Under the pieces are notes generated by a model that worked only from the letters and a program-made list of their open reading frames with translations, had not been told where the DNA came from and searched no databases. 22,610 bases of DNA from a virus. The stretch covers positions 1-22,610 of the IMG/VR virus record IMGVR_UViG_3300026097_001472; one strand, 5' to 3'. Below, piece by piece: positions 2,184 through 22,141 of the stretch; within the stretch, counting starts at the first letter, position 1, and each line of letters begins with the position of its first letter. Both the position numbers and the translations under genes were made by a program.

Positions 2184-2189
2184 AGATTA

Positions 2190-3250: not shown

Positions 3251-3255
3251 ATGCT

Positions 3256-3263: not shown

Positions 3264-3279
3264 GTTACGAGCAATTCCG

Positions 3280-3286
3280 CTAAATA
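3280..3286 (+). promoter_or_regulatory. Late promoter 5 bases before gp14
   Basis: CTAAATA is followed by CTGAT and then the gp14 ATG at 3292. The spacing is the same as at gp13 and there is no Shine-Dalgarno. It is the plus-strand half of the divergent pair. Confidence 0.55.
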
Positions 3287-3291
3287 CTGAT

Positions 3292-6167: not shown

Positions 6168-6175
6168 TTAACTAC

Positions 6176-8900: not shown

Positions 8901-8920
8901 GGGTATCCCGGCTTTACAAT

Positions 8921-8928
8921 TATTTATC
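8921..8928 (-). promoter_or_regulatory. Late promoter before the cupredoxin fibre gene
   Basis: On the minus strand GATAAATAATTGTA lies 20 bases before the ATG at 8900. It shares the block TAAATAATTGTA with the promoter of the neighbouring fibre gene at 9849-9856. It sits in the 76-base gap between the two fibre genes, in which no convincing terminator was seen. Confidence 0.6.
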
Positions 8929-8976
8929 GGAAATTTATTAGATTAAAGAATACATAATTGTTCTACCGGTAAGCAA

Positions 8977-9843
8977 CTATCTAGCCATACAAACCAAATA
9001 TTGTCCAGGAGCAAAGTGGGTTGTATTATTTGAACCTCGCGTTCCGAAGTATCCAAAATTATTCTCTGAACTTATTGCGCCTGGCACTCCGGAAACGCTG
9101 CTGTCCCAATGAGGATCGTAGATCGAGTTGGTATTATACCACCAGCGCATGTCATAGGTTCCACCTCGCCATGGTTCAGGACCGTTGTTTCTTGCATAAA
9201 AACCGCGCACCCTGCCATAGCCCGGTATGGTGGTTCGCTGTGATCCCGAGCCATACAAAAAGTCTTCGGTATCATTTTGCGGTAAAACAACAGCAAAGTT
9301 GTTTGCGGAGTGTTCGTCAAAAGGACCGCCGCCGCTTATGTATAATAGATATTCTCTATTGGCTACATTTCTTTTCCATGAAAGGCTTCCTGGGCTCCAT
9401 AAAGCAAAGTTGAACGCTGTGGTATTATATGCAGTTCCGTCGTTATTCCATGCTCTGGAAATGTTAGTATTATTACCCTGGGCATAATCATAGGATCTGA
9501 TACAGGTCCAACCGCCGCCTTGGGTCGTAAAATCACAGTATGTGTGAAACGCAGAATCAGAGGCGCTTGGTTTGATCCAGTAAAAACCGTTTTCTCTTAC
9601 GCCGTAGTTGTCTCTTAAATCTTTGGCACTTAATGCAGGGTTACTCTGTGTAAGTCCGGGAATTCCCTCGCCGGTTCGTCGACCAATACGAAATTGGCCG
9701 CTGTTATTGTTTCTAAATTCTAATCTTTCTGTATCAGTGTTGTAGCGAATATCCCCTTCGGTATTACTACGCTGTGCTGAAGTTCCGCTTGGTAATATCA
9801 AACTGTCGTTTGTATCAAATACTGTGTTTTTTAAATCTGCCAT
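8977..9843 (-). CDS. Tail-fibre adhesin with fibrinogen-like GGGWT domain
   Basis: This 288-residue protein has an N-terminal module (MADLKNTVFDTNDSLILPSG, then GDIRYNTDTERLEFRN) shared with the adhesins at 10704-11711 and 13097-14071. After a short linker comes NPALSAKDLRDNYGVRENGF, then YWIKP and the hallmark FHTYCDFTTQGGGWTCI (residues 99-115) of the bacterial fibrinogen-like YCDxxxxGGGWT family. In animal ficolins and fibrinogen this fold binds sugars and acetyl groups, so glycan binding on the host surface is a reasonable inference. The rest is rich in Gly, Asn, Trp and Tyr and ends YLVCMAR. It has its own perfect TATAAATA promoter five bases before the ATG and no Shine-Dalgarno. The oxygenase gene at 9862-10506 lies just upstream in the same direction. 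Confidence 0.8.
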   Translation of the reverse strand: MADLKNTVFDTNDSLILPSGTSAQRSNTEGDIRYNTDTERLEFRNNNSGQFRIGRRTGEGIPGLTQSNPALSAKDLRDNYGVRENGFYWIKPSASDSAFHTYCDFTTQGGGWTCIRSYDYAQGNNTNISRAWNNDGTAYNTTAFNFALWSPGSLSWKRNVANREYLLYISGGGPFDEHSANNFAVVLPQNDTEDFLYGSGSQRTTIPGYGRVRGFYARNNGPEPWRGGTYDMRWWYNTNSIYDPHWDSSVSGVPGAISSENNFGYFGTRGSNNTTHFAPGQYLVCMAR

Positions 9844-9848
9844 ACAAT

Positions 9849-9856
9849 TATTTATA
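9849..9856 (-). promoter_or_regulatory. Perfect TATAAATA late promoter 5 bases before a fibre gene
   Basis: On the minus strand TATAAATA is followed by ATTGT and then the ATG at 9843. It is the full T4 late consensus octamer. The spacing predicts a transcript starting at the start codon, in line with the lack of a Shine-Dalgarno. Confidence 0.65.
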
Positions 9857-9861
9857 CGACT

Positions 9862-10506
9862 TTATTTTAAAAATGCACCTAGATTAAAACTTATTGAAAT
9901 TCTAAGGTCTTCACTACTATTTGGTTCTACAGCATGCATGATATCGGCCATCCAAATTAATAAATCTCCATCTTTAGGAGAAATTGACCTCACAGGGTTT
10001 AATATGGGATTTTGAATGTTTTTTAGAAAAATTTCAGGAATATGCAGTATGCTTGGTTCAGTTTTATCTTTGTTTGGCTCTTCTCTGCTCTGATGGAAAA
10101 GTATGTTTCCGCTGTTGTCAGGAACATTTACATAGTATGCACCTGTTAACAGGCAAGGATTTATTAATCTATCATATGCAGGTGCGTCAACATGTTTGTG
10201 AAAAACATTAAATGTGTTTGTAAAATTTATATTAAACCAAATGTTCATTATTTTCAGTTCAAGTTGATTGACCAGTTCAATTTCATCACCGACAATTTTA
10301 GCTTTCTCTTCAATCATTCGGATTAAAAATTCTAATCTTGCATCCTCTTTTAGATTAATGCTGTGATAGCCTCCCCTATTTGAGATTGTTTGTCCTTGAG
10401 GGTTTGAACCATACACTTCCATTGCAGTGTCTCTGAGATTTATAAAGTGCTTATCTTGGTCGGCGTAACGCCAAACATAATCGTAGGTTAAATCTAATCG
10501 TTCCAT
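9862..10506 (-). CDS. 2-oxoglutarate/Fe(II)-dependent oxygenase-like protein (adhesin operon)
   Basis: This 214-residue protein has the double-stranded beta-helix signature of phage 2OG-Fe(II) oxygenases (TIGR02466-like). The segment MNIWFNINFTNTFNVFHKH leads into H105-V-D107 as the HxD iron ligands, then LTGAYYVNVPDNSGNILFH, PKDGDLLIWMADIMH with H191 as the distal ligand, and LRISISFN with R202 placed to bind 2-oxoglutarate. It should hydroxylate a substrate using O2 and 2-oxoglutarate; the substrate is unknown. ATG 10506 has AGGGA about 6 bases upstream. It is the last gene of the run S74 fibre - fibre - halogenase - fibre - zinc ribbon - oxygenase, with gaps or overlaps of at most about 30 bases, so it is made together with adhesins. 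Confidence 0.8.
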   Translation of the reverse strand: MERLDLTYDYVWRYADQDKHFINLRDTAMEVYGSNPQGQTISNRGGYHSINLKEDARLEFLIRMIEEKAKIVGDEIELVNQLELKIMNIWFNINFTNTFNVFHKHVDAPAYDRLINPCLLTGAYYVNVPDNSGNILFHQSREEPNKDKTEPSILHIPEIFLKNIQNPILNPVRSISPKDGDLLIWMADIMHAVEPNSSEDLRISISFNLGAFLK

Positions 10507-10515
10507 AATATTCCC

Positions 10516-10704
10516 TTATGCAGGAATATTTACCCATTTATTTAAAGGACAGGTTGATCCTGAAAATCTTGCCTTTGCAGGAATGAGGCAAAAGCATTCT
10601 TTGCACTGCATTGTTATCGGTATATATCTGTCACAGGTTTTACAAATATTGTGTCGGCTGTTTATAATTTTTTCGTCGACAAACGCTGTGTCTTTCCAAT
10701 GCAT
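10516..10704 (-). CDS. Small zinc-ribbon protein, function unknown
   Basis: The 62-residue protein has C21-x2-C24 and C34-x2-C37 (ICKTCDRY and QCKECFC), a zinc-ribbon spacing, plus C39 and a CPLNKW motif near the end. Similar small proteins sit beside fibre genes in marine T4-like phages. ATG 10704 is chosen because it overlaps the stop of the upstream fibre gene by one base (TAATG) and has GAG just before it; a TTG eight codons upstream would also keep the frame open. It may help fibre assembly or regulate the operon, but nothing here shows which. Confidence 0.7.
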   Translation of the reverse strand: MHWKDTAFVDEKIINSRHNICKTCDRYIPITMQCKECFCLIPAKARFSGSTCPLNKWVNIPA

Positions 10705-11711
10705 TAACTCTTTGCCCACCAAAGCCAATACATCCAGTTGTTTGAAGTTGGGGAATTAATACCCCACGTGCTTGACCAATTTGGTTCTGAAAAGTTTCTA
10801 TTTGAATAGTTAACAGCCATATCTTGATTTCCGGTCCATGCATGATGCTCAATATTACAACCGTCCGATCTACACCCCAACGCATTTATCACAGCCATGC
10901 GCTGGTTTTCACAGTTTGCCCTGCCAAAATCCAGCTGATTCGAAGTTACCAATTCGCCGACCGGTCCTGATCTATATCTGTCTTTGGATTCTTGGGCACT
11001 GCCTTTGATAAAGTTTAAACCTCCAATCAACGTCCTTCCCGAACCGCCGGTTGTGCTTAAATCCGGACCGCCGTTGCCGGATAAAAAGCTAGAAAGACTT
11101 CTACCTCTTCCGTTTTGATTTAACCAACCACTGTTGGTATATGCTATTTCAGTAGACGCACCAAAATAGTCGCCAGATATGTCTTCATCCTGAAAACCCT
11201 GCATGATGCAGATATCATCATAGTCATAATCAAACCACAAGCGGCCCTTGTATGTCTCCTCCCTGTTGGCGGTTTCTGGAGTGCCAAATGTAGTCGTGTT
11301 TATCCAGTTGGTATACCATGTTCCGGGTGGGCCTGCTCGTTGTCCGTGATCTAAAGTTGAAGATATTCCTGCAATTAAAATATAAGCAGTTTCGTTTTCT
11401 GGATTTACAAACAATTTTGTTCGTATTACATTACCACTTTTGTCTGTAACATAGATGTTTCCACTCTTTTGTCCTATTGCGTTTACTATGGTAGTAACGC
11501 TTGTGCCAGAAGGGATAGCTCTATCAGGCGAAGATCCGTCCAAGCTGGCTACCCTAAGCCAGCGTGCACCGTCATAAATTTCTAATTGGCCTTCATCTGT
11601 ATTATATCTAATTTCTCCGTTGGATGGCGAAACAGGACGCTGTGCGGTTGTGCCAACAGGAATTGTTATCGCGCCGGTGTCGTCAAATGTGGTTTTTTGT
11701 AAAGTTGCCAT
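10704..11711 (-). CDS. Tail-fibre adhesin sharing the common N-terminal module
   Basis: The 335-residue protein starts MATLQKTTFDDTGAITIPVG, then TTAQRP, GEIRYNTDEGQLEIYDGARW, the same attachment-like module as the adhesins at 8977-9843 and 13097-14071. After a linker (about 55-90) comes a Gly-, Asn- and Trp-rich globular region with segments such as YILIAGISSTLDHGQRAG, RLWFDYDYDDICIMQGF and CRSDGCNIEHHAWTG, ending WMYWLWWAKS. It looks like a diverged fibrinogen-type lectin head, but the GGGWT hallmark is absent. Its ATG lies 29 bases inside the end of the halogenase gene, with AGGAT about 8 bases upstream, so translation of the two is likely coupled. Receptor binding is inferred from the module and locus. 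Confidence 0.75.
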   Translation of the reverse strand: MATLQKTTFDDTGAITIPVGTTAQRPVSPSNGEIRYNTDEGQLEIYDGARWLRVASLDGSSPDRAIPSGTSVTTIVNAIGQKSGNIYVTDKSGNVIRTKLFVNPENETAYILIAGISSTLDHGQRAGPPGTWYTNWINTTTFGTPETANREETYKGRLWFDYDYDDICIMQGFQDEDISGDYFGASTEIAYTNSGWLNQNGRGRSLSSFLSGNGGPDLSTTGGSGRTLIGGLNFIKGSAQESKDRYRSGPVGELVTSNQLDFGRANCENQRMAVINALGCRSDGCNIEHHAWTGNQDMAVNYSNRNFSEPNWSSTWGINSPTSNNWMYWLWWAKS

Positions 11712-13080
11712 GATCTAAATCCTGCAGTCCGTATCTTTCCAGAGTCTTTCTAGCGGTGTCTGAATCTATTTTGCCTATTCCAGCCAATACCCAATTATAC
11801 AGCGCACTTCCTGCACAACCAAAATAGTGATCTATCGTTAATGCACTAGGAACCTGGTTTTTTGCTACATCTAAAACATATTCAGCACCTGGCGTTAGTG
11901 TGTTTCCTGCTGTGATATGTCGCCAAAACTCTGTATCAGTTCTTCCGCCCATATAATGAACCACCAAAAAATCTCTCATATCGTCGTAGAGTTTTGCCAT
12001 ATGAGAATTATATTTTTCAATGCGTTGTGGTAAAATAGTATCTTTTGAGTCATCTTTTAGATATTCTAATGCAAACACAACGGTTTGCATGATTGTGCAG
12101 TGGATGCTTGTTGCCTCTAACGGTTCTGAAAATGCCGCTGCCAAACCTAATGCTAGACAGTTTCCTTTCCATAATTCTTCACTGCGACCGCTGTTGAACT
12201 GGAATTCCCGCTGTATCTTAACATCGCCATACAACTGTCTAATTTCTTCGTGTGCTTGTTCCTTCGTGCAAAAATCACTAGAGTAAACATATCCACAACC
12301 ATATCTTTCAGCCGTTGGAATTTTCCAACACCAACCATTATTCATTGCTGTGGCGGTTGTTAAACGTTCATAGTTTGGTTCTATAGGCATCCTAAATGCG
12401 ATTGCAGAGTCAACAGGCAGATTTTCCTTATAAGATTTCCATTTCATGTCCATTGCACCGCACAGTGTTCTTTTAAACCCTGTGCAGTCAACAAAAAAAT
12501 CTCCTTCTATTTCTTCGCCGTTTTCGCATACCAATCGCTTGATAGTATTTGTTTCTTGATCAACATTTACACCCCATACGGTGTTAACAATTTTCTCTAC
12601 ACCGCTTTCTATCGCAATTTTTGAGAAGTAATCACCTACCTTGAATGCATCAAAGTGATAACTTCCAGATCCCCAAATTCCTTTTTCCCAGTTTCTTCCC
12701 AGTTGTGAAGCACGATGAAGATGATCTGGATCATGCATAAGTTGTAAACAGAATTCTACATCAGGGACTAGACCGTTTGTGCTAGAGCCATCTAACGGTG
12801 CAAAGTATGAGGAACCGTCGCCGGTCCAGTTTACGTGCTTGATGCCTGATTTGTGTGTTGCATTGGCATGCTCAAAAAACTGTTTTTGGTCGATTCCAGT
12901 ATCGAACCAAACATTATACAAAAAATCATGCAACAATCTTGTGCTGCCTTCGCCTGCGCCTACAATTGGAATACTGTCTGATTCAACCAGCACCACTTTA
13001 TGTTTTCCTGGTTGGGCCCTTGCAAATGTAAGTGCTGCCATCCATCCTGCGGTTCCGCCGCCGACTATTACTATTTTCAT
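11683..13080 (-). CDS. Flavin-dependent (tryptophan-halogenase-like) halogenase 1
   Basis: This 465-residue enzyme belongs to the PrnA/RebH class, which uses FADH2, O2 and halide to make hypohalous acid and halogenate aromatic substrates. Visible motifs are the FAD-binding GGGTAGW (7-13), a candidate catalytic lysine K77 in THKSGIKHVNW (aligned with the K79 region of RebH), the diagnostic WCWKIP (W250-x-W252-x-I-P255), and SEPLEATS with E319 matching the active-site Glu segment. It is shorter than RebH (about 530). A cyanophage halogenase (VirX1) has been characterised as a broad iodinating enzyme, so viral members can be active. It lies between two adhesin genes: 16 bases after one and overlapping the next by 29. 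No flavin reductase is in the window. Its substrate is unknown. Confidence 0.88.
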   Translation of the reverse strand: MKIVIVGGGTAGWMAALTFARAQPGKHKVVLVESDSIPIVGAGEGSTRLLHDFLYNVWFDTGIDQKQFFEHANATHKSGIKHVNWTGDGSSYFAPLDGSSTNGLVPDVEFCLQLMHDPDHLHRASQLGRNWEKGIWGSGSYHFDAFKVGDYFSKIAIESGVEKIVNTVWGVNVDQETNTIKRLVCENGEEIEGDFFVDCTGFKRTLCGAMDMKWKSYKENLPVDSAIAFRMPIEPNYERLTTATAMNNGWCWKIPTAERYGCGYVYSSDFCTKEQAHEEIRQLYGDVKIQREFQFNSGRSEELWKGNCLALGLAAAFSEPLEATSIHCTIMQTVVFALEYLKDDSKDTILPQRIEKYNSHMAKLYDDMRDFLVVHYMGGRTDTEFWRHITAGNTLTPGAEYVLDVAKNQVPSALTIDHYFGCAGSALYNWVLAGIGKIDSDTARKTLERYGLQDLDHGNFTKNHI

Positions 13081-13096
13081 CTGTTTATAACTCCGA

Positions 13097-14071
13097 TTAT
13101 CTTACCCAAACAATGCCAGGGTATGCTTCAACAACACCCGAATTAGACCATTCGCCTACACCGCAGCTCCATGTTCTCCCTGGATTGCCAGCGCCGCCGC
13201 CGAAACCAAACCCTGAATCTGAGCCACTGAATGTGGTATTTCCTTGTGTATATCCGCTGCCATTATCAAGCGGACACCCTATTCGTGCGCCGGCTCTGGC
13301 TACATGAGAATGACCTGCATTGTCAGGATTTTGTTGCGACCCATTATTAGCCCAGGTATTTATACCATATCTCATAACATAGTCTTCGGACCCGCTTTGA
13401 TCTCCGAATTGTCCATCTGTGCCAGAAAAATAAAAACTAGAGTCAAAATACCTTACGCTGGTTCCTAGGCTAGGTGTTTGACTGTCGCTTCCATATGCAT
13501 TTCCATTACCAACACTGTTTAGATTCATTGCGTCTACCATTGTTCTTGCGGTGGTAAAATTCATTATCGCAGGAATAATTCCGTTCATGTCTAATAAAAC
13601 ATGATTGAAAGGATAATAGAGATATGAATAATACTTGCTCCACATGTTCGACAGTAGATTAAAATCATTCCAATTCCATGGCTCATTGTTTGTCCAATAA
13701 GCACTGCCACTAGGCATGTCTCCCCTATTATGAACTTTGAGTATTGCAACCCAATGTTCATTTTGGTGCCAATTAAATTTTGTATATGCCTGATATGTTA
13801 CACCTTCGTGCTGATACCAATAAGGACCGTCGCCCGCATCATTGTTGTCATCGTAAATTTGCGATGCTGAAGTAGCTGGGTTCGCTTGATCGGTGCCTAC
13901 TGGCAATGTGATGTTTATCCAGTTTGTGCCGTCATAAAATTCGGTGGCATTTGTGTCTGTGTTGTAGCGTATCATACCTTGCGATGCAGGATTGGGCCTC
14001 TGCGCAGTTGTGCCCTTGGGCAACACAATGCTTTCGTTGGTATTAAATGAAGTTCGCTTGAGCGTAGCCAT
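13097..14071 (-). CDS. Tail-fibre adhesin with shared N-terminal module and fibrinogen-like head
   Basis: The 324-residue protein begins MATLKRTSFNTNESIVLPKG, then TTAQRP and MIRYNTDTNATEFYDGTNW, the common attachment-like module. From about residue 60, NPATSASQIYDDNND, YQAYTKFNWHQNEHWVAILK and later ARIGCPLDNG resemble a diverged fibrinogen-type fold without the GGGWT hallmark. The end is Gly- and Ser-rich and closes AYPGIVWVR. Two adjacent ATGs are possible (14074 and 14071); the second is chosen because its paralogues start MATL/MADL and AGAGG then has the better spacing. It follows the S74 fibre gene by 4 bases and precedes the halogenase by 16, so the three are one transcript. Confidence 0.75.
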   Translation of the reverse strand: MATLKRTSFNTNESIVLPKGTTAQRPNPASQGMIRYNTDTNATEFYDGTNWINITLPVGTDQANPATSASQIYDDNNDAGDGPYWYQHEGVTYQAYTKFNWHQNEHWVAILKVHNRGDMPSGSAYWTNNEPWNWNDFNLLSNMWSKYYSYLYYPFNHVLLDMNGIIPAIMNFTTARTMVDAMNLNSVGNGNAYGSDSQTPSLGTSVRYFDSSFYFSGTDGQFGDQSGSEDYVMRYGINTWANNGSQQNPDNAGHSHVARAGARIGCPLDNGSGYTQGNTTFSGSDSGFGFGGGAGNPGRTWSCGVGEWSNSGVVEAYPGIVWVR

Positions 14072-14075
14072 CATC

Positions 14076-14861
14076 TTACCTCTTAAGATCGTCTATTTGT
14101 TGCTTCAGTTCTTTTACCGCTTCAATTAGATATGCTGTCAATCTGCTGTAGGCCACACTGTTAGGATTCTTATCCTTGTCTAAGGATACAAGTTCAGGCA
14201 AAATTTCGGATACTTGTTCTGCTATCAACCCTGATTCTTGCAATCCCGTTTGCTTTCTGTTATATTTCACTCCAGCAAGCTGTGTGATTTTATCAAGCGC
14301 ATCGGTTATAGGCTCTATATTTTCTTTGTAGACCAACGATGACGTTTCGACTATTGTATCCGCTTGCATTGTGCCTTCTACAGTAAGATTGTCAACTTCT
14401 AATGTTCCTGTGCTTGGAACAAATTCTAGTTTTCCGCTAGTTGTTCTGACAGCATTGGCAACTCCTGTTGTAGCTGTGCTTAAAAGAGGATAATGAGTAT
14501 TTGAGTCTGTTGTATTATTTGATATAATTGCTCCTACAGCCGCAAAAGAAAGATTTCCGCTTCCGTCGGTTACTATTGCTTCTAAATTGTTTCCATCAGC
14601 TGTTGGCAAAGTCCATGTAACATTACTAGGAACAGTCGCGGCGGCTTTAAATCCTACATATCCTGTATTATCCGAATCTGCAAAACGCAAAGCACTTTCT
14701 TCATTCAGTTGTGCATTGCCTTCTATTAACACTCTACCAGTTCCGGTTGGGTCGAGTATGATGTCCGCATCGTCATCGGTGGTAATAGTTGTGTTGTTAG
14801 ATGCTAGCAACCCACCGAATGTGGGTGCGCCAATTCTGCCTGAGGAGGTTCTTCTTCCCAT
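14076..14861 (-). CDS. Tail-fibre protein with C-terminal S74 chaperone domain
   Basis: The 261-residue protein has a fibre-like N-terminal part with Thr/Asp-rich beta segments (TTITTDDDADIILDPTGTGR, WTLPTADGNN) and a C-terminal intramolecular chaperone of the endosialidase type (peptidase S74). This domain trimerises the fibre and often cuts itself off. SSLVYKENIEPITDALDKI (174-192) corresponds to the family SDxxxKxxI site, with S174 and K179 at the right spacing, although the usual Asp after Ser is Ser. GLIAEQVSEILPELV and YLIEAVKELKQQI match the following helices. ATG 14861 has AGGA about 10 bases upstream and a late promoter 30 bases upstream. It heads the adhesin/halogenase/oxygenase operon. 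Confidence 0.85.
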   Translation of the reverse strand: MGRRTSSGRIGAPTFGGLLASNNTTITTDDDADIILDPTGTGRVLIEGNAQLNEESALRFADSDNTGYVGFKAAATVPSNVTWTLPTADGNNLEAIVTDGSGNLSFAAVGAIISNNTTDSNTHYPLLSTATTGVANAVRTTSGKLEFVPSTGTLEVDNLTVEGTMQADTIVETSSLVYKENIEPITDALDKITQLAGVKYNRKQTGLQESGLIAEQVSEILPELVSLDKDKNPNSVAYSRLTAYLIEAVKELKQQIDDLKR

Positions 14862-14891
14862 TTTTAAAAGTTCCTATGGTTTATTACTAAG

Positions 14892-14899
14892 TATTTATG
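14892..14899 (-). promoter_or_regulatory. Late promoter for the adhesin/halogenase operon
   Basis: On the minus strand CATAAATACTTAG lies about 30 bases before the ATG of the S74 fibre gene, which also has a Shine-Dalgarno. It is the only evident late promoter before the six-gene run down to 9862. Confidence 0.6.
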
Positions 14900-14922
14900 C
14901 ATCGAAAGAGAGAAATTTAAAT

Positions 14923-15177
14923 ATGGATAGTTTACAAATATATATATGTAACGAAAACAAAATTCCAAATCTGTTTTTTTTAAGATTTCTTAAAGAATTT
15001 CTCGATTTACATCCTGAAATTAGAGACAATCGATACCCTGCTAAGTATCTTAATTTTTTATTAAAAAATATTTACAAATGTAAAATTTTAGTTGCCGACG
15101 ACGGGAAGGTAATATTGCGTTTTAATAAACGCATAGACAAGACACATTTTTTATTAAAGTTCAATAGTTTATATTAG
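14923..15177 (+). CDS. Small protein of unknown function
   Basis: The 84-residue protein is Lys-, Leu-, Phe- and Asn-rich and ends FLLKFNSLY. The frame is open upstream to 14587, but that part lies opposite the S74 fibre gene and has fibre-shadow composition, so ATG 14923, with AAAGAGAG about 10 bases upstream, is the likely start. No motif is recognised. It is AT-rich like the oxygenase cassette that follows, and its 3' end overlaps the convergent gene at 15161-15508 by 17 bases. It could be a real small phage gene or a remnant; coding is supported only by the start signal and a full-length frame. Confidence 0.5.
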   Translation: MDSLQIYICNENKIPNLFFLRFLKEFLDLHPEIRDNRYPAKYLNFLLKNIYKCKILVADDGKVILRFNKRIDKTHFLLKFNSLY

Positions 15178-15508
15178 AAATTTGTAACGAAATTCCTAAA
15201 TTTCTAAATTTTTCTTTAATTTTATATACACCGTGTTCACCTGAAAATGTTTCGTAGCCTTCGGTATCACTTAAAAACAGATTATAGGTTACCAAGTAAT
15301 ATTCTACTAAAGGCTTGTGTGCTACGTATAATCCTATGAATCCTGGACTATAGTAAAGCTGTTCCCATAATTCAATTTCTTCAATCGTAAAATTTCTATG
15401 AATCGGTTTCATAGTTGCAGATACGTTTGCGGGTAATGTCCCTGTATTTAATGGATTCGATTCCCACGGATTTTGAAGAATGTGTTTAGTAGTTTTCAAA
15501 ATAGCCAT
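15161..15508 (-). CDS. Unknown conserved phage protein, short paralogue
   Basis: The 115-residue protein is related to the gene at 20766-21215. Both start with F/LKTT-x2-IL-x2-P and share the block FTIEEIELWEQLYYSPGFIG (there LKVEDVDYWEVLHEGSAGIG), then YVAHKPLVEYYLVT (there YASWQPYAEFYMIT), and a YETF-x-G segment. This copy lacks the last ~35 residues of the other. I recall relatives in marine T4-like phages without assigned function. It starts at ATG 15508 with no Shine-Dalgarno; TAAATA lies four bases upstream. It borders the left side of the oxygenase/halogenase cassette, as its paralogue borders the right side in the same orientation. Confidence 0.7.
   Translation of the reverse strand: MAILKTTKHILQNPWESNPLNTGTLPANVSATMKPIHRNFTIEEIELWEQLYYSPGFIGLYVAHKPLVEYYLVTYNLFLSDTEGYETFSGEHGVYKIKEKFRNLGISLQISNINY
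15175..15206 (+). terminator. Possible weak hairpin terminator after the small gene
   Basis: TAGAAATTT (15175-15183) and AAATTTCTA (15198-15206) are perfect inverted repeats with a 14-base loop, followed by a T-rich run (AATTTTTCTTT). The stem starts at the stop codon of the gene at 14923-15177. The stem has almost no G-C pairs, so termination would be weak and the match may reflect AT-rich sequence. Confidence 0.25.
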
Positions 15509-15512
15509 AATG

Positions 15513-15518
15513 TATTTA
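15513..15518 (-). promoter_or_regulatory. Late promoter core 4 bases before the short paralogue
   Basis: On the minus strand TCTAAATACATT runs directly into the ATG at 15508, with four bases between TAAATA and the start codon and no Shine-Dalgarno. It is another case of the predicted leaderless arrangement. Confidence 0.45.
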
Positions 15519-15534
15519 GATCATTTTTCCAACA

Positions 15535-15542
15535 AATAAATA
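15535..15542 (+). promoter_or_regulatory. Late promoter for the oxygenase/halogenase cassette
   Basis: AATAAATA lies 23 bases before the ATG at 15566, with AAGGA (15552-15556) as Shine-Dalgarno. No comparable promoter is evident before the later genes of the cassette, so this one probably drives all seven. Confidence 0.55.
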
Positions 15543-15565
15543 ATTTTCTTTAAGGATATCGAATA

Positions 15566-16195
15566 ATGAGCACTAGAGTTAACGGACTGTTTCCTGGAGA
15601 ATTACAACCAGATCAAAGTTTAGCTGGGGGGATCGATATTTTTGAAAATGCGTGGAAAAATCCAAAATATGCTATAGATCAGGTAGAATCTGTTTGCAGC
15701 GATCCCGAAAAAGGCGTATATTGGCAACAAGCAGAAACAGTAGGTCATGGGCCTATACAGGACATGCGAACAAATCAGATATGCCATATTACCTATCAAG
15801 CAGATGTTACCGGCAACGGTGTAATGCAAAATATACATAATCAGTTCTACGTTTTACTATTAGCTGCGTCAATTCCGTATGCAAAAAGATACGGAATGGA
15901 GGAAGGTCTATTTCATGAACAATATTCAATGTTACGTTATAGACAAAATCAGGAATATAAAGCTCATTATGATAGTAACACCGGCATGGGAAGAGCTATT
16001 TCTGCATTATGTTATCTCAATGATGATTATAAAGGCGGAGAATTAGAATTTGTAAACCAAAAAATACAAATTAAACCGAAAGCAGGAATGTTAATATTAT
16101 TCCCCTCTAATTTTACGTTTTCCCATAGATCAATGCCAGTTACTCACGGAACAAAATACGCTATGGTGACCTGGATACGGGATAGAGAGTTTTGA
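15566..16195 (+). CDS. Prolyl-4-hydroxylase-like 2OG-Fe(II) oxygenase (cassette gene 1)
   Basis: The 209-residue protein carries a canonical prolyl-4-hydroxylase-type catalytic core in its second half. H134-Y-D136 (YRQNQEYKAHYD) is the HxD iron motif, followed by RAISALCYLNDDYKGGELEF and PKAGMLILFPSNFTFSH with H187 as the distal ligand. K197 in MPVTHGTKYAMVTW is the lysine that binds 2-oxoglutarate in this subfamily. All key residues are present, so activity is expected; known members hydroxylate prolines in proteins or related substrates. It has a clear Shine-Dalgarno and is the first gene of a seven-gene operon; its stop overlaps the next start (TTGA). The proline- and glycine-rich adhesins nearby are attractive but unproven substrates. 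Confidence 0.87.
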   Translation: MSTRVNGLFPGELQPDQSLAGGIDIFENAWKNPKYAIDQVESVCSDPEKGVYWQQAETVGHGPIQDMRTNQICHITYQADVTGNGVMQNIHNQFYVLLLAASIPYAKRYGMEEGLFHEQYSMLRYRQNQEYKAHYDSNTGMGRAISALCYLNDDYKGGELEFVNQKIQIKPKAGMLILFPSNFTFSHRSMPVTHGTKYAMVTWIRDREF

Positions 16196-16839
16196 TAATA
16201 GATCTGAATGTTAAATATGTCAACAATCTACCTGTAGCTATCTTCGATAACTTTTATAATGAAGAAGAATATCAAAGAATTTTTAATGAATTACTGTTTT
16301 TAAACGGGCCTGAAAAATTGTTAGATCCGGAATTTTCCGGATCTGCTTACGATTTGGATGATAACAACAACAAGATTTATCGCAAAAAAAATAAAGCTAC
16401 ATTTTTAGAAGATGTCTATCATGATAGAAGATATTCGGATATTTTAAACATAAATCGTAAATTATTCAATCCTAACATTATTGAAAAATTAGAAGAAATA
16501 GATTTGTTTTTTAGATATCTAAAAATATCTAACAGAGATACAACCATGATTAGTTATTATGAAAATAATGACTATTATAAATTTCATAGAGACGATGCTG
16601 TTTTAACTGCATTATGTTGGTTTTATAAAATACCAAAAAAATATTTTGGCGGAGATCTTGAACTTGAGCAAAACGTTTTTATTGAAAGTATTTGTAACAG
16701 ATTAATTTTATTTCCGTCGATTATCGAACACAAAGTAACAGATGTAAACATGGACCCTGAATTTTTAAACAACAACAACGGCAGATTTACAATGACCCAG
16801 TTTATCTTCATGGAGCGCAGTAGTGAAAGAGAGAATTAA
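16192..16839 (+). CDS. 2OG-Fe(II) oxygenase-like protein (cassette gene 2)
   Basis: The 215-residue protein has the iron motif H132-R-D134 in SYYENNDYYKFHRDD, then LCWFYKIPKKYFGGDLEL, NRLILFPSIIEHKV with H180, and R198 in GRFTMTQFIFM as the likely 2-oxoglutarate-binding Arg. This is a complete HxD...H...R set. It differs clearly in sequence from its neighbours, so the cassette is not a recent tandem duplication. The start is probably TTG 16192, which overlaps the previous stop as TTGA and follows GAGAG; no ATG lies near. The N-terminal 60 residues (VNNLPVAIFDNFYNEEEYQR) resemble the usual lead-in of P4H-like enzymes. The substrate is unknown. Confidence 0.8.
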   Translation: MIIDLNVKYVNNLPVAIFDNFYNEEEYQRIFNELLFLNGPEKLLDPEFSGSAYDLDDNNNKIYRKKNKATFLEDVYHDRRYSDILNINRKLFNPNIIEKLEEIDLFFRYLKISNRDTTMISYYENNDYYKFHRDDAVLTALCWFYKIPKKYFGGDLELEQNVFIESICNRLILFPSIIEHKVTDVNMDPEFLNNNNGRFTMTQFIFMERSSEREN

Positions 16840-17329
16840 ATATAAAGTTATTGATAATTTTTTAGATGCAGAGCAGTCTGATAAAATAGAGCAGTATATG
16901 TGCGTGTGGAATGATTTTCCGTGGTTTTTTAACAAAGAAATAACTTTTGCAGATAATGAAAACGAAAATTACTTTTATTTTATACACATGTTTTATCGTC
17001 AATTCAATATTTCTAGTCAATTTTATAAAGAATTAGTAGAACCGATTGTCGACAAAATCAATCCTAGAGCTTTGATAAGAATAAAAGGAAATCTTTACCC
17101 TAACCTCAACGAACCAATTAAAGGCGAGCTACATAGTGATTATGATTTTAATCATCATGGTGCGATCTATTTTGTGAATACCAATAATGGTTATACTCTT
17201 TTAGATGATGAAATCAAGATCGATTCTATAAAAAATAGATTATTACTTTTCGAACCTCATGTTCCACACAGAAGTGTAGGATGCACAGATAACAAATGTA
17301 GAGTAAACATTAATTTTAATTATTTTTAA
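16823..17329 (+). CDS. 2OG-Fe(II) oxygenase-like protein, small (cassette gene 3)
   Basis: The 168-residue protein begins YKVIDNFLDAEQSDKIEQYM after a short lead, and has H104-S-D106 (KGELHSDYDF), HGAIYFVNTNNGYT, NRLLLFEPHVPH with H149, and R160 in KCRVNINFNYF. This is a complete HxD...H...R set in a compact form seen in marine phages. The start is GTG 16823 with GGAG about 9 bases upstream, lying 17 bases inside the previous gene, which points to coupled translation. The pattern N-G-Y-T after the iron motif is typical of this phage subgroup as I recall it. The substrate is unknown. Confidence 0.82.
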   Translation: MKERIKYKVIDNFLDAEQSDKIEQYMCVWNDFPWFFNKEITFADNENENYFYFIHMFYRQFNISSQFYKELVEPIVDKINPRALIRIKGNLYPNLNEPIKGELHSDYDFNHHGAIYFVNTNNGYTLLDDEIKIDSIKNRLLLFEPHVPHRSVGCTDNKCRVNINFNYF

Positions 17330-17330
17330 T

Positions 17331-17996
17331 ATGAAAATTATCACTTTTAAAAATCAAGAGCCTGTTACCGATTTTGCACCTGTGTATGATTACTCTATGT
17401 GTGAAGTTTTTCTGGATAATATTGATAATAATGCATTGTCTGATTTGATCATGACCAAAGAAAAAGAAATAATTGAACAAACTTTACCTGTTGATAGTTC
17501 AAGTCCGGATGGATATACCGGGTTAGGAATAAACAGTTTAACATCAAGATACACAAGATTCAATGTTATGAAGTGGCGCAATCCTTGTGTCGTTGATTTA
17601 AAAAATGCAATTTATGAATCATATTTAAAGTTTTTAGAATATCATCAAGTCAAACGTAGAAAAGTTTGGATAAGTTGTTGGGCCAATGTTCTGCGTTCAG
17701 GAGAAAGTATACAACCTCATATCCATTGTGTTGACGAATATACATATTTGAGCGGAAATTATGTGGTTCAAGCAGAAACTACAAAAACATTTTATTTAAA
17801 TCCTATAAATCAAATTAACGAGCCTGCAACTTATGAAGTTGTAAATACTCCTGGAAATCTAGTTATCTTTCAATCAAATATACCGCATTTTACCGATATA
17901 CATACTAGTAACGAACCAAGAATAACGATAGCATTTGATCTTATAGTTGACGAAATGGATACCACGGTTAATACTGTGTTATTCGATGGAGAATAA
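17331..17996 (+). CDS. Putative 2OG-Fe(II) oxygenase with HxH motif (cassette gene 4)
   Basis: The 221-residue protein resembles TIGR02466-like oxygenases. VWISCWANVLRSGESIQPHIH leads to H130-I-H132, then YLSGNYVVQAE, PGNLVIFQSNIPHFTD with H186, and PRITIAFDLI with R197. The first iron motif is HxH, not HxD; D135 or E136 shortly after might supply the acidic ligand, or the site may be altered. It starts one base after the previous stop, with no Shine-Dalgarno, so it probably depends on translation of the gene before it. The oxygenase family call is good; catalytic competence is less sure. Confidence 0.72.
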   Translation: MKIITFKNQEPVTDFAPVYDYSMCEVFLDNIDNNALSDLIMTKEKEIIEQTLPVDSSSPDGYTGLGINSLTSRYTRFNVMKWRNPCVVDLKNAIYESYLKFLEYHQVKRRKVWISCWANVLRSGESIQPHIHCVDEYTYLSGNYVVQAETTKTFYLNPINQINEPATYEVVNTPGNLVIFQSNIPHFTDIHTSNEPRITIAFDLIVDEMDTTVNTVLFDGE

Positions 17997-17999
17997 TAA

Positions 18000-18605
18000 A
18001 TGAATTTTGCAAATAATGGATATTTTATACAGAAACAGGTTTTATCTAAAGAAATTGTCGAATTAATAACACAATATGCGCTGTTTGACGAAATGCAGAA
18101 TCCTAGTATCGGTGATGAACAAATTAAAAATGCACATAGCAGATATGCTGACCCTTTAATGGAAGCTGTATTACTGAAAATACAGAAAACTATAGAGTCT
18201 ATTACTGATTTATCGTTGCACCCGACTTATTCTTATTATCGTATCTACAGAAGTGGTGATGAACTTGTTAATCACACAGATAGACCATCCTGTGAAATTT
18301 CTGCAACAGTATGTTTTGATTATGAATACTCAAATAAAGATTTTCAATGGCCTATATATATGAACGGAACGGCTTTAATATTAGAGCCTGGAGATATCGC
18401 GGTATACAGAGGATGCGAAGTTCCGCATTGGCGAGATAAATTTATAGGAGAAGAAGACGATTGGCATATTCAAGGTTTTTTCCATTATGTAGATGTGAAT
18501 GGTCCTTACGAAAATTACATGTATGACGGACGCTCCACAGTAGGAGAACTGAAAACAAAACAAGAATATAAAAATCAATATCCTGACTACATAAAAATAT
18601 TATGA
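18000..18605 (+). CDS. 2OG-Fe(II) oxygenase-like protein (cassette gene 5)
   Basis: The 201-residue protein has YYRIYRSGDELVNHTD with H92-T-D94, ATVCFDYEYSNKDFQWPIY, LEPGDIAVYRGCEVPHWRD with H143, and HIQGFFHYVDVNGPY near the end. The HxD and distal His are clear, but the usual Arg or Lys after the distal His is not obvious, so 2-oxoglutarate must be held by another residue or the site differs. The ending HYVDxNGPY is seen in a subgroup of phage and bacterial oxygenases as I recall them. ATG 18000 has GGAG about 8 bases upstream. The stop overlaps the next start as ATGA. Confidence 0.76.
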   Translation: MNFANNGYFIQKQVLSKEIVELITQYALFDEMQNPSIGDEQIKNAHSRYADPLMEAVLLKIQKTIESITDLSLHPTYSYYRIYRSGDELVNHTDRPSCEISATVCFDYEYSNKDFQWPIYMNGTALILEPGDIAVYRGCEVPHWRDKFIGEEDDWHIQGFFHYVDVNGPYENYMYDGRSTVGELKTKQEYKNQYPDYIKIL

Positions 18606-19192
18606 TCAACACAGAAATACAAACATGGTTTCCTAAAAGTGTTTTTCAAGCCGAAAACGTATTAACAAATAACCAATTAAAAAATTTGTATAATTTTTTA
18701 ACTCCGTTTTTTGAAAAACAATCGTTACGAACTGGCATGTTAAATGTAGATTCGACACATAGTATGTGTAATCTAAATAATTATGCCGAAATACAAGAAT
18801 TAAAGAAAGAAATATTGTTTGCTGTATCTAATTTTGCATTAGCCATGGGATATTCTGAAAAACAAATTTCTACTTTGTCATTCATAAATATATGGGCTAA
18901 TAGGTCATATCAAGGAGATTTTAATTTCCCACATGTGCATTCTGGAAGCCAATTCTCTGGAGTATTTTACGTTTGTGTTCCAAATAATTCAACAATTACA
19001 TTCTATAACGATATGACAAGAACACTGATCGAGCCAGAAAATTATAATGAATTAAGTTTTAACTACGTAAGATATAAATGTGTAAAAAATTCGATTTTGG
19101 TTTTTCAAAGTAATTTTTTACACGGTAACGAATTCCAAGATGAAGGCGAAAAAATTGCTGTCTCTTTTAATTTAAAAATGGATATTATATGA
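18602..19192 (+). CDS. Putative 2OG-Fe(II) oxygenase with HxH motif (cassette gene 6)
   Basis: The 196-residue protein has the TIGR02466-like layout: FINIWANRSYQGDFNFPHVH with H111-V-H113, SGVFYVCVPNNSTITFYND, SILVFQSNFLHGNEF with H174, and EKIAVSFNLK, where K184 stands in place of the usual Arg. Like cassette gene 4 it has HxH instead of HxD. The N-terminus (TEIQTWFPKSVFQAENVL) matches the family lead-in. Its ATG overlaps the previous stop (ATGA) and its own stop overlaps the halogenase start in the same way, so the oxygenase and halogenase are translationally linked. Activity and substrate are unproven. Confidence 0.74.
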   Translation: MINTEIQTWFPKSVFQAENVLTNNQLKNLYNFLTPFFEKQSLRTGMLNVDSTHSMCNLNNYAEIQELKKEILFAVSNFALAMGYSEKQISTLSFINIWANRSYQGDFNFPHVHSGSQFSGVFYVCVPNNSTITFYNDMTRTLIEPENYNELSFNYVRYKCVKNSILVFQSNFLHGNEFQDEGEKIAVSFNLKMDII

Positions 19193-20775
19193 AAACTGAA
19201 AATATAGTAATTGTTGGAGGCGGATCCGCCGGATGGATGACTGCTGCAACATTGATAACAGCCTTTCCTAAAAAATGTATTACTGTTGTAGAGTCGCCGG
19301 ATGTCCCTACAGTAGGCGTAGGTGAATCTACAATTTTAGGAATACGAAAATGGGCAAGATACATCGGATTAGATGAAAAAGATTTTTTAAAACATACTGA
19401 CGGATCCTATAAACTTAGCATTAAATTTACAAATTTCTATAAAAAAGATAGTGGCGGATTTCATTATCCTTTTGGTAGCCCAATTACAATGAGTGATAGA
19501 AATCCTGTATCGGATTGGCATTTTAAAAAATTTTTTCACCCAGAAACAGATGTCGAGGATTTTGTTAGGTGTTTGTTTCCGTCTGCGGCGTTATTTGAAA
19601 ATAATAAATTTACAAAAGACTACCCCGATATTTTTGATGCAGATGATGTAGTCGCATATCATTTTGACGCAACTAAATTTGGCATTTATTTGAGAGACAA
19701 CATCTGTATTCCTAACGGAGTAAAGCACGTAAAGAACACAGTAAATCACGTCGAAACAAGTAATCAAGGAATTGATTTTATTGTTTGTGACAATAATAAA
19801 ATTTTTGCTGATTTATTTGTGGATTGCACTGGTTTTAAAAGTTTACTCTTAGAACAATCCCTACAGGAACCATTTGAGTCATACGACAAAATTTTACCTA
19901 ATAATAAAGCATGGGCAACAAAGATAGATTATAAAGACAAAAAACAAGAACTAGAAGGATTTACAAACTGCACAGCAATACAAAACGGATGGTGTTGGAA
20001 TATACCTCTTTGGTCTAGATTAGGAGCAGGTTATGTATATTCTGATAGATATGTGTCTGATAAACAGGCGCTTGAGGAATTCAAAAATTATTTAACTTCT
20101 GAAAAAATGCAGGTTACTAGGACGCCCGAAGAAGTTGATCAACTAGAATTTAAAAATATATCAATAAAATCGGGCATACACACAAGAACATTTGTCAAAA
20201 ATGTAGTAGCAATAGGTCTTTCTGCTGGATTTATTGAACCTTTAGAAAGTAATGGATTGTTTTCTGTCCACGAGTTTCTTTTTAAACTTACTGATATACT
20301 GCAAAGACAGGAAATAAATCAGTTCGATAGAGACATGTATAATATTAGCATAAGAGACATGTTTGATGACTTTGCAAAATTTGTATCATTGCATTATGCA
20401 TTATCGCACAGAGACGATACCGAATATTGGAGAGACATACAGACAAGACAGTTTTGTGACAAACATGGAGATCCGTATTTTCCTTATATTGGGAGAACCG
20501 ACGCCTATTACAATATGTCATGGAGATATATGACAGAATGGGGACATCCTAAAGACAGTGTAATGAATGGAATTACATATATTTCAACTGGAATGCATGT
20601 TTTTATGATGAATAAGTATAGGGTAGATGATTTAGAATATAGGACAGGACGTAATTTCGAAATCGAAATAAATTCAATAGTAGAACAATGGGAACAACTG
20701 AAAAATAATTGGCAAAAAATATCTGCCGAATCACTAAGTTTATATGATTATTTGAAACAAGAAATTCATAAATAA
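19189..20775 (+). CDS. Flavin-dependent (tryptophan-halogenase-like) halogenase 2
   Basis: The 528-residue protein is close in length to RebH and PrnA. It has the FAD-binding GGGSAGW (10-16), GVGEST (43-48), candidate catalytic K75 in GSYKLSIKFTNF, VDCTGFKSLL (211-220), the diagnostic WCWNIP (W268-x-W270-x-I-P273) and FIEPLESNG with E350 in the active-site Glu segment. All family hallmarks are present, so it should form hypohalous acid at a flavin and pass it through the lysine to an aromatic substrate. In related enzymes this is free Trp or a larger indole or phenol; here it is unknown. It ends the seven-gene cassette and differs widely from halogenase 1, so the two are not recent duplicates. 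Its 3' end overlaps the convergent gene by 10 bases. Confidence 0.9.
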   Translation: MKTENIVIVGGGSAGWMTAATLITAFPKKCITVVESPDVPTVGVGESTILGIRKWARYIGLDEKDFLKHTDGSYKLSIKFTNFYKKDSGGFHYPFGSPITMSDRNPVSDWHFKKFFHPETDVEDFVRCLFPSAALFENNKFTKDYPDIFDADDVVAYHFDATKFGIYLRDNICIPNGVKHVKNTVNHVETSNQGIDFIVCDNNKIFADLFVDCTGFKSLLLEQSLQEPFESYDKILPNNKAWATKIDYKDKKQELEGFTNCTAIQNGWCWNIPLWSRLGAGYVYSDRYVSDKQALEEFKNYLTSEKMQVTRTPEEVDQLEFKNISIKSGIHTRTFVKNVVAIGLSAGFIEPLESNGLFSVHEFLFKLTDILQRQEINQFDRDMYNISIRDMFDDFAKFVSLHYALSHRDDTEYWRDIQTRQFCDKHGDPYFPYIGRTDAYYNMSWRYMTEWGHPKDSVMNGITYISTGMHVFMMNKYRVDDLEYRTGRNFEIEINSIVEQWEQLKNNWQKISAESLSLYDYLKQEIHK

Positions 20776-21215
20776 ATCTTTTTGGTTGTATTATTGGTTT
20801 CATACAACCAAAGTTTATCATTTTCTACCCATTCAAACGATTCTTTTAAATTGATACCGAAATCTAAAGCACGTTTTTTGACCGCATGCTGAGCACCGGG
20901 CCCGTAGAATGTTTCATATATTCTATCGTGATATAAAAACTTGTCAATAACTCTTGCATCGTTTTTAAAATCTAATCCAGTAGTAATCATATAAAATTCA
21001 GCATAAGGTTGCCAAGAAGCATATACTCCTATTCCTGCAGAACCTTCATGTAAAACTTCCCAATAATCAACGTCTTCTACTTTTAGTTTTCTTTTGTAGT
21101 CCCACGGTTTGCTTGGGGGCAGCAGTAATTCGCTGGTCTCGAACCATTTTTTTTCAAATGCTTCGTCTTCGTCTGGTTTTTTAAGTATATTATATGTAGT
21201 TTTGAATTGGGGCAT
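20766..21215 (-). CDS. Unknown conserved phage protein, long paralogue
   Basis: The 149-residue protein begins MPQFKTTYNILKKPDEDEAF and contains LPPSKPWDYKRKLKVEDVDY, then WEVLHEGSAGIGVYASWQPY and AEFYMITTGLDF, followed by YETFYGPGAQHAV. It is a paralogue of the gene at 15161-15508. I recall such proteins in marine T4-like phages with no assigned function. The frame is open to 21302, but ATG 21215 is chosen: AAGG lies about 7 bases upstream, the paralogue starts at the same point, and the upstream extension is read out of the glycine-rich gene. It follows the glycine-rich gene by 8 bases in one operon. Confidence 0.8.
   Translation of the reverse strand: MPQFKTTYNILKKPDEDEAFEKKWFETSELLLPPSKPWDYKRKLKVEDVDYWEVLHEGSAGIGVYASWQPYAEFYMITTGLDFKNDARVIDKFLYHDRIYETFYGPGAQHAVKKRALDFGINLKESFEWVENDKLWLYETNNTTKKIYL
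20781..20812 (+). terminator. Hairpin at the end of the cassette, possible terminator
   Basis: TTTGGTTGTAT (20781-20791) and ATACAACCAAA (20802-20812) form an 11-base-pair perfect stem with a 10-base loop, five bases after the stop codon of halogenase 2. A moderately T-rich stretch follows (GTTTATCATTTT). It lies inside the last codons of the convergent gene. It could end the plus-strand transcript, though the T-run is not strong. Confidence 0.4.
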
Positions 21216-21223
21216 TATTAACC

Positions 21224-22141
21224 TTATGCAATGTATCTTACAATAACAACACCAGAACCACCATTGCCGTTTTGACCTGCTCCTTGCGGGCCACCTTGCC
21301 ACCCGTCAGAGCCTCCGCCGCCGCCAGTGTTTGGCTGACCTGGTTGAGCTGCACTACCTTGAGGACCAGTTGATCCCCCGTTTGTTCCTGTGCCGCCACC
21401 GCCTGGGCCACCAGATCCGGCATTTGATCCAGGACTGTGATAACCGCAACCGCCTCCGCCGCCTCCGCGCTGAACAGGAGATCCGCTAATTGAACTATCT
21501 AAGCCAGCTCCGCCTGGACCTCCAACCGTTGCATTTGTCCCGGCTGCACCTCCTGGATTGCCTTGCCCGCCCGGAACCGCTGATCCTAGTGAACCACTAC
21601 CTCCGTCACCAGCGGGGCTACCTGCTCCGCCTGCTCCTCCTCCGCCTGCGCCTTGGTGATTGCCGCCGCCGCCACCGCCGGATCCGCCTGATCTGCCGGG
21701 TCCTCCTTGGTAGCCTCCACCACCACCACCTCCGGTTGTGGTTATAGAACCAAATGCTGATGGTTGGCCGTCATTTGCTTGCGGACCATAAGGCCCGGTT
21801 GAAGCACCACCACCACCAACCGTTATCGGGGTTGATCCTAGTGTTTTGGTTTGTGATCCTGTTAAATAGCCGCCGGCACCGCCTGCTCCTCCGATAAAAG
21901 ATCCGGCTCCGCCGCCGGCAACAACCAGATGCTCCACATCCAAAGTTGAAGTAATAAGATTGGAAAATTCATTTCCGCCTTTGTGTTTTATTGTGAAGTC
22001 GTGATCACCTTCAGTGGTAAACATGTGTATTACATAGCCGCCTGCCATGTAGATTTCATCACCGCCGGTGATTTCTAAATCACCGATAGATGTGTTAGTT
22101 GGAATATCGTAGTTTTTTCTTAAACTTTTAACATATGGCAT
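21224..22141 (-). CDS. Glycine-rich adhesin-like protein (complete copy)
   Basis: The 305-residue protein has an N-terminal ~75 residues with a small beta-domain pattern (GGYVIHMFTTEGDHDFTI, VEHLVVAGGGAG) and then about 200 residues dominated by Gly with Ser, Pro, Asn and Gln, ending GGSGVVIVRYIA. Similar glycine-rich proteins occur at the tips of marine phage fibres; in the Salmonella phage S16 gp38 adhesin, glycine-rich motifs pack as polyglycine II helices. Receptor binding is therefore a reasonable inference. One Cys (GGGCGYH) is present. ATG 22141 has AGGA about 9 bases upstream. It follows the partial copy by 8 bases, and the unknown conserved gene comes next. Proline and glycine richness makes it a possible hydroxylation target. 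Confidence 0.75.
   Translation of the reverse strand: MPYVKSLRKNYDIPTNTSIGDLEITGGDEIYMAGGYVIHMFTTEGDHDFTIKHKGGNEFSNLITSTLDVEHLVVAGGGAGSFIGGAGGAGGYLTGSQTKTLGSTPITVGGGGASTGPYGPQANDGQPSAFGSITTTGGGGGGGYQGGPGRSGGSGGGGGGNHQGAGGGGAGGAGSPAGDGGSGSLGSAVPGGQGNPGGAAGTNATVGGPGGAGLDSSISGSPVQRGGGGGGCGYHSPGSNAGSGGPGGGGTGTNGGSTGPQGSAAQPGQPNTGGGGGSDGWQGGPQGAGQNGNGGSGVVIVRYIA

Follow-up and report, generated by a model that had tools for sequence, protein, structure and literature searches.

The DNA stretch analysed here (the window) is a 22.6-kb viral fragment, IMG/VR record IMGVR_UViG_3300026097_001472, positions 1-22,610, from a T4-like, Kyanoviridae-like marine phage. At 15566-19192 on the plus strand it carries six different genes for 2-oxoglutarate (2OG)-Fe(II) oxygenases followed by a flavin-dependent halogenase, and these genes may form a single co-translated oxidative tailoring cassette inside the tail-fibre (host-recognition) region. 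It is proposed, with a probability of roughly 0.4, that the cassette is expressed late and that its enzymes add hydroxyl groups and halogens to a peptidyl substrate, for which the glycine-rich fibre encoded nearby is the likeliest candidate. The row consists of the following genes:

15566-16195, plus strand: g1, a prolyl 4-hydroxylase (P4H)/PKHD-like 2OG-Fe(II) oxygenase, HYD...H...K (PF13640, 9e-20)
16192-16839, plus strand: g2, a 2OG-Fe(II) oxygenase with a TTG start, HRD...H...R (PF13640, 1e-7)
16823-17329, plus strand: g3, a 2OG-Fe(II) oxygenase with a GTG start, HSD...H...R (PHROG 274, 4e-40)
17331-17996, plus strand: g4, a PF13759-type 2OG-Fe(II) oxygenase, HIH...H...R (PF13759, 4e-9)
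18000-18605, plus strand: g5, a 2OG-Fe(II)-like oxygenase, HTD...H (PHROG 2954, 1e-46)
18602-19192, plus strand: g6, a PF13759-type 2OG-Fe(II) oxygenase, HVH...H...K (PF13759, 1e-11)
19189-20775, plus strand: a VirX1-like flavin-dependent halogenase (PF04820, 8.5e-99)

An earlier reading of the window, made from its letters without database searches (the sequence-only reading), had described six mutually different oxygenase genes in tight succession, and this description is borne out by the open reading frames (ORFs) and by the family and fold evidence given below. Coordinates and sequence also agree with the junctions that it listed, namely a 4-nt TTGA overlap, a 17-nt overlap, gaps of 1 nt and 3 nt, an ATGA overlap, and a further ATGA into the halogenase. 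No terminator-like sites were found on the plus strand inside the array, and decay of the array is rejected, as every frame is open and the iron ligands are kept. The GC content of the array, 29-34%, is lower than that of most of the window outside it (38-53%), a dip that fits an acquired cassette.

Four of the six oxygenases (g1, g2, g4 and g6) match Pfam families above the cut-offs, whereas g3 and g5 have no significant Pfam match and were assigned through PHROG and iterative profiles only. Iterative profiles built from g1, g2, g3, g4, g6 or a seventh oxygenase of the window recover largely one common set of ORFs (323-402 each), with which the set recovered by the g5 profile overlaps weakly. 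The best PDB sequence matches of g1 are the prolyl 4-hydroxylase 3ITQ and the procollagen lysyl hydroxylase LH3. By sequence, all six proteins possess the iron ligands HxD/E (or the HxH of PF13759) and a distal His, which are conserved in their homologues (H132, D134 and H180 in g2), and the candidate residue for binding the 2OG carboxylate is Lys in g1, Arg in g2, R160 in g3, R197 in g4 and K184 in g6. The several subtypes proposed by the sequence-only reading (P4H-like with Lys, HxD/Arg, and HxH) are recognizable in these motifs, and so is the divergence of the proteins, since BLAST E-values below 1e-3 within the array were obtained for the pairs g1-g2 and g4-g6 only. The HxH motif is not peculiar to the array, as it also aligns in the solved PF13759 proteins 3BVC and 2RG4; an unusual three-His chemistry for these members was set aside on this ground.

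For g3 and g5, structures were predicted from alignments of 44 and 22 sequences, respectively, while the fold of g1, g2, g4 and g6 is assigned by homology. Both models, with predicted local distance difference test (pLDDT) values of 92.8 for g3 and 91.1 for g5, have a double-stranded beta-helix of the prolyl-hydroxylase-like kind. The best match of the g3 model by VIA is PHD2 (Z 16.0, root-mean-square deviation (rmsd) 2.6, 147 aligned), and the g5 model matches SnoN (Z 17.2, rmsd 3.5, 177 aligned) and the P. putida P4H (Z 16.7, rmsd 2.8, 161 aligned), with Foldseek E-values as low as 9e-8 for g3 and 1e-10 for g5. Residues H104, D106, H149 and R160 of g3 are invariant across the 44 sequences, as are H92, D94 and H143 of g5 across the 22. 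Given these two beta-helix models with an invariant HxD and distal His, it is strongly supported that each of the six has the 2OG-Fe(II) oxygenase fold and its iron ligands.

These models also bear on two database labels. The T4 DenV-type endonuclease V has a small, all-helical pyrimidine-dimer glycosylase fold. A DenV function for g3, as implied by the label 'DNA endonuclease V' of PHROG 274, is rejected, as its model shows a beta-helix that carries a 2OG active site, not an all-helical protein. A ferrochelatase function for g5, after the label of PHROG 2954, is rejected as well, the match to PF00762 having an E-value of just 0.18, below the cut-off, and the predicted fold being a double-stranded beta-helix. 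Fold and active site suggest that the cyanophage 'DNA endonuclease V / denV' family (PHROG 274, T4-GC 100) consists of 2OG-Fe(II) oxygenases, and the cyanophage 'ferrochelatase' family (PHROG 2954 and 3531) is predicted to have a prolyl-hydroxylase-like fold. Homologues of the two groups occur in at least 252 and at least 156 phage records, respectively; their labels look wrong and would inflate claims of DNA repair and haem synthesis in marine phages. In the phage S-CREM1, a separate gene carries the annotation pyrimidine dimer glycosylase.

Sequence comparison strongly supports the assignment of the seventh gene of the row as a VirX1-like flavin halogenase. Its best PDB match is VirX1 (6QGM) of cyanophage Syn10 (E 2.2e-95), and it has the motifs GGGSAGW (GxGxxG) and GWCWNIP (WxWxIP) and the conserved residues K75, W268, W270 and E350. 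Weak NCBIfam matches to the peptidyl-modifying flavoenzymes LodB and QhpG agree with a protein substrate for this halogenase but do not demonstrate it. By pattern scan, no relatives of the halogenase were found in cellular genomes. A second halogenase of the window (11683-13080) also has the conserved K, W and E positions; for this one the pattern scan returned no close relative in viral contigs, and weaker ones are present at other loci. A distant halogenase relative (30% identity) is encoded at 1941-3317 of MT835646.1, a phage contig of human faeces.

To place the array among other phages, 25 complete related genomes were mapped for PF13759, PF13640, PHROG 274, PHROG 2954, gp13, halogenase and Gly_rich_2, with the numbers of 2OG genes being lower bounds from the PF13759/PF13640 matches listed. 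These genomes contain at least 323 2OG genes and at least 29 clusters of three or more, compared with 3.0 under random placement (maximum of 8 in 500), and chance clustering is thereby rejected. Among the matches listed, 21 of 27 halogenases lie within 4 kb of a 2OG gene (9.5 expected); within 1 kb no enrichment was seen among these matches (6 of 27; 4.7 expected). A second sample, taken from isolates and IMG/VR contigs, comprised 45 arrays after dereplication, each with at least four 2OG genes. Just 10 of their 232 members have their best match within their own array, on which basis an origin by tandem duplication is rejected; with their closest detectable paralogue in that array, members share a median identity of 30%. 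By sequence comparison, the arrays are built from old, distinct lineages rather than from tandem duplicates. Exactly one copy of the g5 type was found in each of 26 arrays (shuffle expectation 16.3, p = 0.0015), and two copies in one array alone (expectation 5.4, p = 0.003). Junctions of 30 bp or less account for 157 of 203, the commonest value being -4.

Gene fusions were also identified. In one metagenome contig (IMGVR_UViG_3300032242_001373), one 713-aa ORF joins two domains, a halogenase at aa 4-481 and then a g5-type oxygenase at aa 490-685, and where they meet no start codon is seen; this is a single instance that awaits confirmation. Also encoded at this locus are an orthologue of g1 (57%) and the beginning of a halogenase that shares 71% identity with that of the window. 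Fusions of g5 and g1 types are found in S-SCSM1 (453 aa) and ACG-2014f (362 aa), and PHROG 3531 represents such a fusion of a g5-type with a g1-type (P4H-like) domain. The two kinds of fusion link g1, g5 and the halogenase into one working set and, along with the operon-like junctions and recurrent co-occurrence, strongly support that the array set works as a unit. Alternatively, the array may have arisen as mobile accessory genes gathered in a hypervariable hot spot, without a common substrate. Such accumulation would agree with the location in a known hypervariable island (PMC7029224), the GC dip and the differences in gene order and content among relatives, but it does not account for the fusions, the near-fixed single copy of g5, the adjacency of g1 and g5 in many loci and the prevalence of short junctions, and it is considered quite improbable. 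The sequence-only reading had also proposed a sequential multi-enzyme pathway rather than redundancy. Non-redundancy stands, given the distinct subtypes and the operon-like unit, but a strict sequence of action is only one possibility; an equally good fit is that different residues are modified in parallel, because enzymes hydroxylating different residues of one fibre would leave the same layout.

The array is not confined to the window; similar arrays recur in relatives. Closer relatives of the window, found by scans with the fusion protein and with g1 (loci L202/203, L208-L218, L246-L248 and L250), have the array on the plus strand, with g1 54-58% and g5 48-59% identical and with zero to three halogenases. 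One or both sides of their arrays are occupied by minus-strand proteins of a small type, s, and by glycine-rich fibre genes, as in the window. These close relatives thus keep the same cassette, with flanking fibre genes on the other strand. In some of them, a DUF6445 protein and a PHROG 7084 protein are encoded between g1 and g5, and the enzyme set is thus exchangeable around a g1/g5 core. The DUF6445 protein (PHROG 1644, labelled 'minor coat protein'; 6525-7193 in L211 and 6532-7200 in L217) has HxD...H...R-like motifs and is probably, from these motifs, another 2OG oxygenase. The PHROG 7084 protein of about 265 aa, located between the DUF6445 gene and g5 (7190-7993 in L211 and 7197-7985 in L217), has no Pfam match.

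In the left part of the window are T4-like neck and tail genes. Next to these come minus-strand genes of tail-fibre-like type, among them those for a Peptidase_S74 chaperone protein and a Gly_rich_2 protein. Features outside the row are as follows:

2492-3298, minus strand: Ad2/gp13-like head-tail adaptor
3292-4677, plus strand: virion structural protein
4677-6167, plus strand: tail-sheath(-stabiliser)-like protein
9862-10506, minus strand: seventh 2OG-Fe(II) oxygenase, HKH, amid fibre genes (PF13759, 2.5e-13; TIGR02466 above cut-off)
11683-13080, minus strand: second flavin-dependent halogenase, amid fibre genes (PF04820, 1.5e-94)
15161-15508, minus strand: small protein s, fibre-linked, flanking the cassette on the left
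15536..15542, plus strand: ATAAATA, a T4 late-promoter-like motif, 23 nt ahead of the g1 start
20766-21215, minus strand: small protein s, fibre-linked, flanking the cassette on the right
21224-22141, minus strand: glycine-rich fibre protein (Gly_rich_2), the candidate substrate (PF21722, 1.7e-6, above cut-off)

The seventh oxygenase and the second halogenase had been left out by the sequence-only reading. The two s proteins are paralogues (27.8%, E 1e-11) without a Pfam or PHROG match and are possibly fibre chaperones or adhesin tips. The second halogenase gene overlaps a fibre gene (10704-11711), and near it and the seventh oxygenase a fibre-like protein (8977-9843, minus strand) matches COLFI (7e-7) and Fibrinogen_C (2e-6), the fibrillar-collagen C-terminal and fibrinogen-C domains.

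Groups of 2OG and halogenase genes adjoin Gly_rich_2 fibre genes far above circular-shift controls. With a group defined, among the 2OG matches listed, as four or more 2OG/halogenase genes, the distance between a group and a Gly_rich_2 gene is at most 6 kb in 12 of the 15 complete phages that have both (circular-shift mean 1.75, maximum 8 in 5000), and 12 of 27 halogenases have Gly_rich_2 at a distance of at most 3 kb (1.1 expected). Among these same matches, 15 of the 17 genomes that have Gly_rich_2 contain a group, as do 3 of the 8 that lack it (p = 0.017). In metagenomic arrays, a glycine-rich ORF is among the three nearest upstream genes in 26 of 52 cases, compared with 4.4% of background ORFs; the immediate upstream neighbour is glycine-rich in just 6 of 52, that place usually being taken by a small ORF of about 150 aa. 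The same layout (fibre genes, small ORF, one or more halogenases, the 2OG row, and then neck gp13 or other genes) recurs in the isolates Sf-CH11, Sf-FP1, Sf-FR1, S-RIM44, Syn10, S-CREM1, P-RSM6, S-WAM1, S-SZBM1 and P-TIM40, and without the halogenase in Pelagibacter phage Mosig. At 10984-12220 of the Mosig locus, a putative heme oxygenase gene and a PcyA-like gene close a six-gene 2OG array by a glycine-rich gene.

The sequence ATAAATA is the core of the T4 late promoter. It is present upstream of gp13 in 12 of 17 loci (1.0 expected) and upstream of glycine-rich fibre genes in 17 of 67 cases (2.1 expected), and before the first genes of arrays it is no more frequent than by chance. A late-promoter signal common to all arrays was accordingly not found, and since the enrichment is before the glycine-rich genes and not before array-first genes, the promoter of many arrays could be that of the upstream fibre gene. 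In the window, where the array is opposite in strand to the fibre genes, a late-promoter role for the motif ahead of g1 is suggestive only.

According to the favoured explanation, the cassette would be expressed alongside the fibres late in infection. The oxygenases would each have a side chain of their own to hydroxylate (Pro, Lys, Asn/Asp or other). The halogenase would chlorinate, brominate or iodinate Tyr or Trp of the protein encoded next door. The target would most likely be the glycine-rich adhesin beside the cassette, or another fibre protein, whose stability, folding or receptor binding may be altered by the modification. A protein substrate is suggested because the nearest solved relatives of g1, g3 and g5 are mostly peptidyl (prolyl/lysyl) hydroxylases, candidate proteins lie next door, and VirX1 is reported to have an unusually open active site that takes large substrates (PMC8407142). 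A dedicated multi-enzyme system with which marine T4-like phages would hydroxylate and halogenate their own glycine-rich tail-fibre adhesins after translation, in a collagen-like maturation of receptor-binding proteins with swappable chemistry that could diversify host recognition, is a bolder proposal and somewhat doubtful.

Several points weigh against modification of the fibre. To our knowledge, modification has not been measured for any phage fibre. The position usually occupied by the 2OG anchor is not Arg or Lys in g5 (its other invariant residues are R81, Y83, R145 and Q158), and as the carboxylate anchor was not located, the activity of g5 is the least certain of the six. Foldseek and VIA matches include the small-molecule enzymes SnoN, FtmOx1 and OkaE. 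Among the matches listed, only 89 of the at least 323 2OG genes are clustered; the genome set was mostly picked via halogenase or g3 matches and includes several close relatives. The clusters in S-B64, S-MbCM6, S-MbCM7 and P-SSM7 have no fibre gene within 6 kb, and in S-SSM7 the halogenase is mixed with sugar and carbamoyl genes. Finally, this host-recognition cluster of fibre genes is known as a hypervariable hot spot, so that the linkage could reflect the landing site of the cassette (PMC7029224).

In the main rival explanation, the oxygenases and the halogenase would be biosynthetic enzymes that serve to make or tailor a small molecule or glycan during infection, such as a host-surface sugar, a signalling compound or an antibiotic-like product. 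2OG oxygenases and halogenases are typical tailoring enzymes, the fold matches of g5 include SnoN and SnoK, and the S-SSM7 region between the fibre genes and gp13 (4820-16332) contains carbamoyltransferases, 2OG genes, the halogenase, heptose genes, a methyltransferase and a cysteine dioxygenase. VirX1 halogenates many free aromatics (PMC8407142), and antibiotic protection was suggested for the halogenase (PMC9964418, PMC2984593). However, no scaffold-building function, such as a synthetase, glycosyltransferase or precursor peptide, was recognized in the window or in the relatives' cassettes examined, and the nearest fold relatives are mostly protein hydroxylases, which makes this explanation rather unlikely. 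Still less likely is that the enzymes modify host proteins or the envelope, or consume 2OG to shift nitrogen signalling. Modulation of 2OG/NtcA (PMC3037559) and metabolic reprogramming (PMC9602691) have been proposed for such cyanophage enzymes, and a structure with bound EF-Tu has been solved for the P. putida P4H, one of the close fold matches (4IW3); yet a drawdown of 2OG would not need six divergent active sites, and it is left unexplained why different subtypes are kept with a halogenase beside Gly_rich_2 genes.

Published suggestions for the roles of cyanophage 2OG oxygenases and halogenases include DNA repair, nitrogen sensing and antibiotic protection. If fibre maturation is correct, the natural substrates of these oxygenases and of VirX1-type halogenases would become directly testable by virion proteomics, part of the marine-virus 'auxiliary metabolic gene' count would move to structural maturation, and host range would gain a new layer of variation, one of chemistry rather than of sequence. 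A search of a collection of openly available papers returned none tying 2OG/halogenase arrays to the host-recognition cluster and no report of phage-fibre hydroxylation or halogenation.

Multi-copy divergent 2OG genes and halogenases were previously reported in cyanophages (PMC3037559, PMC9964418, PMC9602691, PMC9146016, PMC10452541), with ten 2OG-Fe(II) oxygenase genes in S-CREM1 (PMC9964418) and 24 in S-SCSM1 (PMC9602691). The array is therefore not unique to the window, and what is new here is the assembly from distinct lineages, the fusions, the fibre linkage and the flanks of the close relatives. Among known systems, the peptidyl prolyl and lysyl hydroxylases (P. putida P4H, PHD2, chlorovirus vCPH and LH3) have the fold and iron ligands in common with the array enzymes, and g1 and g2 contain the same P4H-type domain; identity by structure is about 10-20%, and likeness of substrate is suggested by analogy. 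The 'ferrochelatase' of PHROG 3531 and ACG-2014f is a natural g5-type plus g1-type fusion but a single gene outside the fibre region. S-CREM1 and S-SCSM1, like the window, have several divergent PF13640/PF13759 genes per genome, and S-CREM1 has a contiguous row of at least eight 2OG genes downstream of a halogenase and a collagen-like protein gene; their authors regarded these as auxiliary metabolic genes (DNA repair, lipid and nitrogen metabolism) and did not discuss a fibre link (PMC9964418, PMC9602691). In Syn10, a halogenase about 41% identical over 415 aa to that of the window is accompanied by a similar row of 2OG genes, located after its halogenases. The window differs from these cyanophage arrays in that its array and its fibre genes are on opposite strands and the halogenase comes last in the row.

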